From positions 1 through 64,000 of the forward strand of contig JAKASR010000004.1 of assembly GCA_021818955.1 (NCBI GenBank): a stretch of 64,000 nucleotides of DNA, given 5' to 3'. The notes beneath the pieces were generated by a model, which saw only the letters and a list, made by a program, of their open reading frames with translations, did no database searches and was not told the DNA's origin. Both the position numbers and the translations under genes were made by a program. The number at the start of each line of letters is the position of its first letter. Positions within the stretch are counted from its first letter, which is position 1. The stretch comes from Acidobacteriota bacterium (lineage in GTDB: Bacteria; Acidobacteriota; Terriglobia; Terriglobales; SCQP01). This document shows positions 24,986 to 27,341 of this stretch, one piece after another.

Positions 24986-25972
24986 CTATTCCGGGACCGG
25001 CGTGGTATCGCGAATTTCGGAGAGTATCAGGTCGGCTGCTTCCGATTGCAAGTTAGCGGGGCCGTATTGAGTGTTTAAGGTTACCCGGTGGGCAAAGGCG
25101 GCCACGGCCAGCCGTTTGAAATCTTGCGGCACGCAATAATCCCGGCCTTCCAGTAAAGCCGCGGCCTGCGCGGCGCGATGCAGCATGGCGGCTCCACGCG
25201 GGCTGACGCCCAGACGCAATGCCGGATGCCGACGGGTCGCTTCCACCAGTTGCAGTTCGTACTCCACCAGCGCATCATCCACCCGAACTTGTCGCGCCGC
25301 CTGCTGGAGTTCCAGTACATGTTGCGGGTCGAGCACCGGCGTAATCTCCGGCAGCAGTGTATTTCCGGCCAGGCCCATCAGGATAGCCTTCTCGTCCGCC
25401 TTGGGCGGGTATCCCATGCGGACACGAAGCAGAAAACGGTCAAGTTGTGACTCTGGCAGAGGATAAGTGCCATGATGCTCAACCGGGTTTTGGGTCGCGA
25501 TCACCATGAATGGCCGCGGCAGCGGATGCGAAGCGTTATCCACCGTCACTTGGCGCTCGCTCATGGCTTCCAACAGCGCCGATTGGGTTTTGGGAGTTGT
25601 CCGATTAATCTCGTCGGCCAGCACTACATTGGCGAAAATCGGCCCGGGATGAAATTCAAACTGTTGCCGCCCCTGGTTGTAGATGCTGATGCCGGTCACA
25701 TCACTGGGCAGCAGGTCGCTGGTGAACTGAATGCGCTGAAAACTGCCGGCCAACATGCGCGCCACCGCCTGGGCCAGCGTCGTTTTGCCGACACCGGGCA
25801 CATCTTCAATCAGCACATGCCCATCCGCGAGTAAAGCAATCAACACCTGGCGAATGCCGTCGCCGGCGGTGCGGACCACTCGCCGCAACTGCTGCTCCAT
25901 GCGCGCCAGCGCCGCAGCGGGAACGGGAGCAAGCACTCCGGTGGCGATATTTTCTGAGGAGGAAAACGACAT
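24986..25972 (-). CDS. MoxR-family AAA+ ATPase
   Basis: The 328-residue ATPase has Walker A GVGKTTLAQA, Walker B VLADEINRTTPKTQ and sensor-type IATQNPVEHHGTYPLPESQ, all typical of MoxR. These chaperones usually help DUF58/von Willebrand-type proteins mature metal or envelope enzymes. Here no DUF58 gene adjoins; the downstream gene is convergent and upstream lies a DUF6599 protein. I took the start at MSFSSSENI; an upstream Met would add 22 residues that overlap the leader. The candidate structured RNA and terminator 70 bases upstream may control it. Confidence 0.9.
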   Translation of the reverse strand: MSFSSSENIATGVLAPVPAAALARMEQQLRRVVRTAGDGIRQVLIALLADGHVLIEDVPGVGKTTLAQAVARMLAGSFQRIQFTSDLLPSDVTGISIYNQGRQQFEFHPGPIFANVVLADEINRTTPKTQSALLEAMSERQVTVDNASHPLPRPFMVIATQNPVEHHGTYPLPESQLDRFLLRVRMGYPPKADEKAILMGLAGNTLLPEITPVLDPQHVLELQQAARQVRVDDALVEYELQLVEATRRHPALRLGVSPRGAAMLHRAAQAAALLEGRDYCVPQDFKRLAVAAFAHRVTLNTQYGPANLQSEAADLILSEIRDTTPVPE

Positions 25973-26040: not shown

Positions 26041-26171
26041 CAAAAACGAAAAATGCCCATCCCGCGACGCGGAACAGGCATTTTTCACAGGAGAAATAGC
26101 TTCGAAGTTTCCCGTCCGAAAAAGGCCGGTAAATGCCTTACCGGGTGGTTGGAACCTGCGAAACTTGGCTG
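26041..26171 (-). ncRNA. Candidate structured RNA: small RNA or attenuating leader of moxR
   Basis: Read on the minus strand, a promoter-like TTGACA-N18-TAACAT is followed by about 130 bases rich in pairing and then a strong terminator. Arms seen: AAGTTTC with GAAACTT (seven pairs) enclosing CCGGTAA-GGCAT-TTACCGG. GCAGG inside the first stem can also pair with CCTGT outside it, a possible pseudoknot. The terminator stem is GAAAAATGCC/GGCATTTTTC followed by CGTTTTT. The layout is that of a small RNA gene or a riboswitch/attenuator; I tried c-di-GMP, c-di-AMP, glycine, SAM, cobalamin and SRP RNA signatures and none fits. There is no convincing ORF here. Confidence 0.45.
26048..26086 (-). terminator. 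Strong intrinsic terminator upstream of moxR
   Basis: GAAAAATGCC (26048-26057) and GGCATTTTTC (26077-26086) form a ten-pair stem; an inner CCGCG/CGCGG segment can also pair. On the minus strand it is followed by CGTTTTTG, a good T-run. On the plus strand the stem itself ends in five T. Confidence 0.7.
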
Positions 26172-26177
26172 GCAAAA

Positions 26178-26207
26178 ATGTTAAGGTCGCCGGGAAAACA
26201 GTGTCAA
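26178..26207 (-). promoter_or_regulatory. Promoter-like site TTGACA-N18-TAACAT
   Basis: A perfect -35 (TTGACA, minus strand 26207-26202) and TAACAT at 26183-26178 with 18-base spacing (TTAACA with 17 is the alternative). It would start transcription near 26171, into the structured region before moxR. It lies in an AT-rich patch (26215-26290) unlike the surrounding DNA. Confidence 0.5.
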
Positions 26208-26309: not shown

Positions 26310-27341
26310 TTAATTGAGGTCGAGATGAATAAGGTCGTGCCCGCGGTAGGTAAACAGGCGCGGAAACATGCGCGCGAGCCGGGCATGCATCCACCCGCTG
26401 AGCACGCCCACGACCAGCGCAACCATCAATAGCCCGACAGTCAACAGTATGATACCGATAAACAACTCAGCGACATCGGTGATATTGGCGGGGATGGCTT
26501 GGCTCCAGGTCACAAGAGTGTTTTCATTGACGCTGGCGAGCAGACGCGAAGCGCTCTTGAAATCTCCGCCCCGCACCATCAGCAACAGGCTGCCGGATCG
26601 GCGGAATAGGACCGGCGGGGCGGCATTTTTCAGCGCCTGGCGGAAGCGCTGCAACTGAAGCTGGGCGATCTGTGGTGTCGGATAGGCCACGATCGCGAAA
26701 TCGGCGGATTGCCTGGGCAACGAATAGCTGGCCACGACCGCTTCCGCCCTATACTCGAAACCTGCCAACGCCACGGGAACCCAAGGCAAGGCCTGAGCCC
26801 AGCCGGAGGAGCCATAGCAGTAGCGCAGGCTTCCGGGAATCCGTTCATGTCGAGGAGCATAAGCGATGATGGTGGGAAGCTGATCGCCCGGCGCGTTCCA
26901 GCGCGGCAGCAATTTCGCCCAGGCGAGAATAGGCGCGAACTGAGCCGGGATAATTGCGCCGGCTGGTTTCGCGCGCACCAGCCAGCGATCGCAATCCAAG
27001 GCGAGATTGCCTGGCGCGACCGTCACGAGGCAAGCGGACAAGGGGCGGGAAACCGCCGCCGGACGACGGAAGGTATAAGCGCCAAAAGCGCCACTAGCAT
27101 CCCCAAACAAGTCAACTTGCAGCTTAATTTGCCGTGTCCCCTGAAAGGCTTGAAAAGCGTAGCGGCGGATCCATCCGAATTCACGCAGAAGTGCGGAAGG
27201 CGGAGCGGCGAGGGTGGGATGCAATCTCCATCCGGGCAACAGGGGAAGCTGAATACCGCCGGGGGCGCGCGGGGCGGCGGCGACCACAGCCGGGCAGAGC
27301 ATCCAGAAAAAAAGCCAAGCCAATTGACGCAAATTCCGCAT
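26310..27341 (-). CDS. DUF6599-like exported protein with C-terminal membrane anchor
   Basis: The 343 residues begin with a signal peptide (LAWLFFWMLCPAVVAAAPRA), continue as a soluble domain with FGWIRRYAFQAFQ, VDLFGDASGAFGAYTFRRP and AIVAYPTPQIAQLQLQRF, and end with a membrane segment (IGIILLTVGLLMVALVVGVL) and a short basic tail. I associate this architecture with DUF6599 of Acidobacteriota; function unknown. The 44-base gap to nadB suggests co-transcription with the nad genes, but a functional link is not evident. Confidence 0.7.
   Translation of the reverse strand: MRNLRQLAWLFFWMLCPAVVAAAPRAPGGIQLPLLPGWRLHPTLAAPPSALLREFGWIRRYAFQAFQGTRQIKLQVDLFGDASGAFGAYTFRRPAAVSRPLSACLVTVAPGNLALDCDRWLVRAKPAGAIIPAQFAPILAWAKLLPRWNAPGDQLPTIIAYAPRHERIPGSLRYCYGSSGWAQALPWVPVALAGFEYRAEAVVASYSLPRQSADFAIVAYPTPQIAQLQLQRFRQALKNAAPPVLFRRSGSLLLMVRGGDFKSASRLLASVNENTLVTWSQAIPANITDVAELFIGIILLTVGLLMVALVVGVLSGWMHARLARMFPRLFTYRGHDLIHLDLN

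Follow-up and report, generated by a model that had tools for sequence, protein, structure and literature searches.

The window, that is, the whole 64,000-nucleotide stretch of DNA analyzed here, holds a gene for a DUF6599-like membrane protein, a moxR gene and, between the two, a gene for a predicted RNA of about 130 nucleotides that occurs once in its own genome (Table 1). The DUF6599-like protein scores just below the 27-bit cut-off of its Pfam model (E 6.4e-6, 26.3 bits), and a sister-family homologue that is 27% identical to it matches the same model with E 4.5e-28.

Table 1. Features of the small RNA locus in the window, and the predicted partner elsewhere in the same genome.
Feature	Position	Strand	Basis
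DUF6599-like membrane protein gene (upstream, conserved neighbor)	26310..27341	-	Pfam PF20244
-35 hexamer TTGACA	26202..26207	-	promoter scan; kept in relatives
-10 hexamer TAACAT	26178..26183	-	TANNAT-type hexamer in aligned copies of the window's family
Predicted transcript, ~130 nt	26041..26170	-	fold; copies in relatives
Basal stem P1, 5' arm AGUUUCG	26159..26165	-	fold; pair counts
Basal stem P1, 3' arm CGAAGCU	26098..26104	-	fold; pair counts
Candidate pairing segment AGCU-A-UUUCUCCUGU	26087..26101	-	complementarity to mini-mRNA; covariation
Intrinsic terminator hairpin, 18 pairs	26048..26086	-	fold (26086-26069 with 26065-26048)
Terminator U tract GTTTTTG	26041..26047	-	sequence
moxR (AAA_3 ATPase), downstream neighbor	24986..25972	-	Pfam AAA_3, E 1.9e-65
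Predicted mini-mRNA (locus L381)	G000 contig C39:32950-33065 (outside the window)		R3 and pattern search

Signals and fold of the small RNA gene

A preliminary description of this DNA had placed a TTGACA-N18-TAACAT promoter, nested stems, a possible pseudoknot and a terminator about 70 nucleotides ahead of the moxR ATG at 25972. The promoter with its 18-nucleotide spacer and the distance to moxR are as described, and all of these elements lie on the minus strand. This promoter is the sole promoter-like site within 1.2 kb, which means little by itself because shuffled sequences yield 0.7 such sites on average. TTGAC recurs at the equivalent position in 11/11 copies from the window's family, and TTGACA stands upstream of all 18 copies fetched from the sister family with a search model that does not include that hexamer. 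From the spacing to the -10 hexamer, we infer that transcription starts at the A of a conserved CCA(T/G)C. As far as can be read from sequence, the RNA has its own promoter and intrinsic terminator, as a trans-acting small RNA would.

Folding of the entire 131 nucleotides gives -52.6 kcal/mol (z -4.3, 0/200 shuffles), while the 83 nucleotides that remain without the terminator are structured only moderately (z -2.4, 5/200 shuffles). The terminator had been described as a ten-pair stem; it is present with 18 pairs, followed by GTTTTT. In an alignment of 11 relatives, 87.9% of the cells in P1 and the terminator are paired and ten pairs have changed on both sides, nine of them in the terminator (9/14 of its pairs). 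The letters of the proposed nested stems AAGTTTC/GAAACTT and CCGGTAA/TTACCGG are present, but the predicted fold is a different one, in which AGUUUCG pairs with CGAAGCU. In the same 11 relatives, neither the nested stems nor the pseudoknot display covariation above shuffles: they are paired in 63.2% of cases, compared to 64.1% after shuffling, and the pseudoknot helix GCAGG/CCTGT is paired in 46.8%. CCTGT belongs to the stretch that is predicted to pair in trans with the mini-mRNA described below. A coding function was also considered, since reading frames of 56-73 codons span the element. This candidate was rejected: by eye, the length of the loop varies freely in relatives, and therefore no reading frame is kept across the RNA.

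Conservation and neighborhood in Terriglobales

The nearest relative carries the element with 81% identity over 165 nt (E 1.8e-33; of the DNA similarity matches, those weaker than E 1e-3 arose mostly by chance), and this conservation establishes that the element is real. Among the 14 genomes of the window's family, 11 copies were located by way of the moxR orthologue and then a 3' motif; a covariance model built from these copies (R1) added one in G012, which brings the count to 12/14. R1 matches 162/397 genomes of the order at E<=1, with chance matches at the weak end, and uncovered shorter homologues of about 101 nt in the sister family. With a model of this shorter form (R2), we searched a phylum sample of 395 genomes and detected the RNA in 47/49 sister-family genomes, each at E 2e-10 or better; no match outside Terriglobales was convincing. 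Ten weak matches (E 4e-6 and worse) were fetched: nine are terminators, tRNA ends or unrelated sequences without the linker, and the remaining one (L271) is a genuine copy from G015, within the order. Applied unfiltered to ten loci of the window's family, R2 returned the same sites in six (E 2e-6 to 2e-3). A pattern search through named genomes yielded at least 118 stretches; 117 of those listed are titled as members of Acidobacteria, and the genera include Edaphobacter, Granulicella, Terracidiphilus, Acidicapsa, Terriglobus and Sulfotelmatobacter. One contig titled Rhodanobacteraceae (L207) carries the acidobacterial pattern and is possibly a mislabelled or contaminated bin. The search in other Acidobacteriota that the preliminary description had called for thus finds the small RNA conserved across Terriglobales. 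In line with its statement that the conserved cores of familiar riboswitch classes are missing, Rfam has no match to the RNA, whether the gathering cut-offs or a limit of E 10 are applied, and scans of the copies in relatives gave nothing relevant.

The sister-family RNA is laid out as AGAAAGUUYUGAYGG-loop-CCUCCGUUGGAACUAUUCUCCCU-terminator. We aligned 57 of 80 loci (near-identical and incomplete copies removed) with nine model-found copies, and 98.9% of the cells in the stems are paired. Conservation is highest in the linker between the two hairpins, ACUAUUCUCC. Changes in the first hairpin fall almost all on the 5' arm, whereas the 3' arm and the linker are frozen, which is the look of a sequence that may be read by another molecule. 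Since the search pattern fixes GGARCTATTCTCC in the 57 loci, only model-found copies test it freely; these are the nine in the alignment and the 18 fetched copies that include them. RNAs of the window's family have a longer hairpin and a variable linker (CUAUUUCUCCUG in the window, CUUUUCUCCAAG in G003, CUGUUCUCCAAC in G005). In single-strand folds the linker is only partly accessible, which counts against the pairing proposed below: it is unpaired with a value of 0.56, compared to 0.33 for the whole RNA, and 0.14 in G011. The RNA presents a conserved seed, with its target site elsewhere in the genome (see below), and this seed is moderately single-stranded.

Of 80 sister-family loci, 72 have a DUF6599 gene upstream of the small RNA and on its strand, and in 70 of them no other called gene is nearer; the genes downstream vary. 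These counts rest on 80 of the at least 118 pattern stretches. At the loci read in the window's family, the small RNA is flanked by the DUF6599 gene and moxR. In 4/11 close relatives (G002, G006, G007, G010) it is reversed relative to moxR. The small RNA is thus tied to a place and not to moxR. A fixed position and orientation upstream of a regulated gene is not what these genomes contain, and on this evidence moxR is not the partner of the small RNA. A tRNA-Thr(CGT) gene lies nearby in 10/12 sister-family loci scanned, six of which were picked because Rfam already showed a tRNA there.

An unlinked mini-gene that matches the linker

To look for a partner, we searched 28 genomes for the exact 11-nt complement of the linker, AGGGAGAATAG, and for a control pattern. 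The complement occurs 69 times and the control 15 times. About 23 matches fall on the small RNA gene, 22 sit immediately 5' of the ATG of one small gene, hereafter the mini-gene, and about 24 lie elsewhere, at no recurring gene as far as these sites were read by eye. The complement forms the Shine-Dalgarno region of the mini-gene in 21/24 sister-family genomes (20 plus locus L311), and G320 holds a second copy (L308). The mini-gene starts with a strong promoter (TTTTTTCTTGACA-N17-TATACATTC) and a leader that is followed by the complementary Shine-Dalgarno sequence and an ORF of 12-32 codons rich in Lys and Ala (for example MATKKAAKKAPAKKAAKKTAKKK or MATKKKAKKKKKH); its terminator has a GGGGACGC stem. 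With another pattern and a sequence model (R3), it was located in 12/14 genomes of the window's family; since R3 was built from mini-genes that carry the usual Shine-Dalgarno sequence, it could miss others. In the window's own genome (G000), ACAGGAGAAAAGCU precedes AUGGCAAAAGCC and the encoded peptide is MAKATKKKAAKKTAKKKK. The two genes are unlinked: in G058 a distance of about 269 kb separates them on a single contig, in G084 one of 423 kb, and in G000 they are on different contigs. G011 has the small RNA without the mini-gene, G023 the mini-gene without the small RNA, and G008 and G061 have neither; in G009 the mini-gene is present and the contig is broken at the small RNA site.

Second Lys-rich mini-genes occur within the same genome in G010 (L384), G004 (L385) and G320 (L307 and L308), and those of the window's family have Shine-Dalgarno sequences of the GGAGGATAG or GGAGGAATAG type. 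A mini-gene-like match with a short Lys-rich ORF (L382, E 0.0046) was also found in G549, from another order of the class, where R2 found no small RNA.

In the window's genome, AGCU-A-UUUCUCCUGU of the small RNA can form ten pairs, a bulged A and four further pairs with the Shine-Dalgarno region ACAGGAGAAA-AGCU. Across 43 genomes, the longest uninterrupted complementarity between linker and partner ranges from 6 to 14 pairs. In G003, AGCUUUUCUCCAAG of the small RNA matches CUUGGAGAAAAGCU of the mini-RNA in 14/14 positions; G010 and G007 reach 13/13, G002 and G006 12/12, G005 14 with one G-U pair and G015 14 with two. In G025 and G042, where the linker has changed to CUGCCUCCCA and the partner reads UGGGAG-C-GCAG, 6+4 pairs form around a bulge. 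The matching changes in linker and mini-gene thus extend outside the GGAG core.

These changes were also assessed by permuting partners among genomes, with kinship ignored in each case. For ten genomes of the window's family, the cognate energies sum to -213.3, compared to -180.1 (sd 9.6) for permuted partners, and 7/20,000 permutations are as low; for 17 genomes, intended as one per genus, none of 20,000 is. Since 20 of the mini-genes had been identified by means of the complementary pattern and are therefore no test of the pairing, a separate test was confined to genomes in which R3 had found the mini-gene. Among 13 of these, chosen by us as one per near-identical group, cognate pairs average -21.05 kcal/mol and non-cognate pairs -15.37 kcal/mol, and 0/50,000 permutations are as low. 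An upstream control segment of the same small RNAs displays no cognate preference (14,953/50,000). Cognates do not always rank first (fifth in both G004 and G012). The duplex of G000 (-20.4) is unexceptional alone, as 16/3192 80-nt pieces of the window reach that energy; the strongest of the 20 duplexes listed, in G031, has -28.0.

A possible second contact involves the terminator loop region. GUUGCC occurs there in 22/43 small RNAs, and GGCAAC follows the Shine-Dalgarno sequence in 21 of their partners, compared to 9/21 partners of small RNAs without this loop. We treat this contact as a lead only, because GGCAAC is in part made of codons for Ala-Thr.

The ORF is kept in 37/43 partners. Synonymous changes prevail over nonsynonymous ones in near pairs (3/0 for G000-G001, 5/1 for G002-G006 and 5/1 for G047-G320), which is not so in more distant pairs (6/10 for G014-G055, 6/7 for G003-G013). 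In G025 and G042, from one genus, the start codon and the Lys-rich ORF are gone and the promoter, the pairing site and the terminator remain; the same loss, with these three elements kept, is seen in G031, G036, G046 and G038 of another genus. Six of 43 partners hence retain the pairing without coding, as an RNA sponge would. Since these genomes have lost the ORF, repression of the peptide cannot be the sole role of the pair, and the observation points to an RNA-pairing role beyond the peptide. The 32-residue peptide of G015 gave a weak match to Pfam HC2 (E 0.0014, 19.2 bits, cut-off 40), and two other mini-gene peptides tested against Pfam gave none. Their composition recalls histone H1-like tails. 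HC2 histone H1-like proteins are likewise rich in Lys and Ala, whereas the mini-gene peptides have only 12-32 residues. Genes for histone H1-like proteins of 124-131 residues that start with MATKKASKKS (L335, L336 and L337, in G036, G046 and G031) are preceded by GGAGAAGTAG or GGAGAAGTG; they belong to the genus of these three genomes, whose mini-RNA lost the ORF.

Proposed function and alternatives

The reading that best fits these observations, to which we assign a probability of about 0.7, is that an autonomous, sigma-70-type gene of Terriglobales encodes a trans-acting antisense small RNA that would regulate the mini-mRNA. In this RNA, a short and conserved linker rich in C and U would join the basal hairpin to the terminator hairpin. 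By pairing in trans with the unlinked mini-mRNA at its Shine-Dalgarno region, the linker would cover the ribosome-binding site and so block translation of the peptide. The gene with its signals, its conservation, its partner and the co-variation of the duplex are established at the level of sequence comparison, from which we infer that the two RNAs are expressed and pair in the cell, with repression as the outcome. Because two genera lost the ORF but kept the pairing, the mini-RNA may also act back as a decoy that titrates the small RNA. A more far-reaching version, which we offer tentatively and regard as possible rather than probable, is an order-wide circuit of two RNAs in which a dual-function mini-RNA is both the message for a histone-tail-like peptide and a sponge for the conserved small RNA. 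The pairing would then be the older and essential part that outlives the peptide, and one family would have added the second loop contact between GUUGCC and repeated GGCAAC.

The mini-RNA might instead be chiefly a sponge, with other mRNAs of similar Shine-Dalgarno sequence as the real targets and the ORF secondary or decaying. The six genomes without ORF fit this idea, as does the fact that the strongest duplex listed comes from one of them (G031), and a linker complementary to AGGGAG would suit many ribosome-binding sites. Yet most partners keep the ORF with mostly synonymous changes in near pairs, and the few other exact sites do not, as far as read by eye, recur at one gene; we consider this alternative rather unlikely. 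Decidedly less probable is a trans-encoded type I toxin-antitoxin system, in which the cationic peptide would be toxic and the small RNA its antitoxin. A tiny ORF with its own promoter and an antisense RNA over its ribosome-binding site would be expected of such a system, but the hydrophobic stretch typical of type I toxins is missing from the peptides, the genes neither adjoin nor overlap (G058, G084, G000), and G549 has a mini-gene-like match without the small RNA. It is more improbable still that the complementarity merely reflects Shine-Dalgarno-like and anti-Shine-Dalgarno-like letters in the two RNAs. GGAG/CUCC is indeed common to nearly all pairs and the energy in one genome falls within the tail of the background; against this stand the matching changes outside GGAG, the cognate preference that no permutation among 50,000 reproduced and that the control segment lacks, and the recurrence of the same mini-gene in 21/24 genomes.

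Two further identities have almost no probability left. The preliminary description had left open whether the element is an independent small RNA or a riboswitch or attenuator of moxR. An own promoter and terminator, conservation and the lack of an Rfam class bear out the former half. A cis-acting element would account for the position between a promoter-like site and moxR and for the terminator before the gene; nonetheless, the inversion in 4/11 relatives, the varying downstream genes in the sister family, the lack of an Rfam class and the lack of conservation of the proposed stems and pseudoknot speak against it, and we regard it as ruled out by orientation and neighborhood. The least credible identity is a shrunken 6S RNA. 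Rfam detects 6S in 27/27 sister-family genomes searched and in 0/14 genomes of the window's family, which made this identity attractive, but the sister-family genomes carry both RNAs, which led us to reject this identity. The fold, at about 130 nt, also has no large central bubble, and the Rfam scan of the window's small RNA gave no match to RF00013. As a separate observation, 6S (RF00013) went undetected in G000-G013 at E<=0.001, with three weak matches at E<=10; in the window's family it has either diverged beyond the model or been lost.

Among known regulators, the CcsR/CuckooRNAs and RsaE/RoxS are trans-acting small RNAs with C-rich anti-Shine-Dalgarno motifs. The RNA described here would share with them a hairpin, a single-stranded C/U-rich motif, a terminator and pairing to Shine-Dalgarno sequences; it differs in having no Rfam match, one dominant co-varying mini-mRNA partner and, in the phylum sample, occurrence in Terriglobales only. 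IstR-1/TisB is a type I toxin-antitoxin pair in which an antisense RNA acts against the mRNA of a tiny ORF, as may be the case here, although our genes are unlinked, the peptide is Lys/Ala-rich and not hydrophobic, and the pairing outlives the ORF. The possible second contact, GUUGCC in the loop with GGCAAC downstream of the Shine-Dalgarno sequence, resembles the double-contact pairing of OxyS-fhlA; this loop is found only in sister-family copies and is absent from the window's copy.

Acido-1 (RF01686) and Acido-Lenti-1 (RF01687) are noncoding RNAs described from acidobacteria (Weinberg et al. 2010, PMC2864571). Rfam scans of the small RNA and its relatives gave no match to Acido-1. Acido-Lenti-1, a model of 46 positions, has many matches in sister-family genomes and none in G000, which excludes this identity for the window's RNA. 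Its copy number varies, from 104 matches in G024 to none in some other sister-family genomes. A table in one review lists four annotated sRNAs for Acidobacteriota (PMC9029176), and a term search of PMC7074687 found no mention of small RNAs. A literature search that covered few subscription journals found no published description of the small RNA or its partner.

Acidobacteriota are among the commonest soil phyla, and their regulatory RNAs are little known. A conserved acidobacterial RNA can now be matched with a concrete and testable candidate partner. The mini-gene peptides would represent a class of microproteins, two of the three tested being without a Pfam family. The genomes in which the ORF is lost and the pairing is kept may serve as a natural experiment on how coding mRNAs become RNA sponges.
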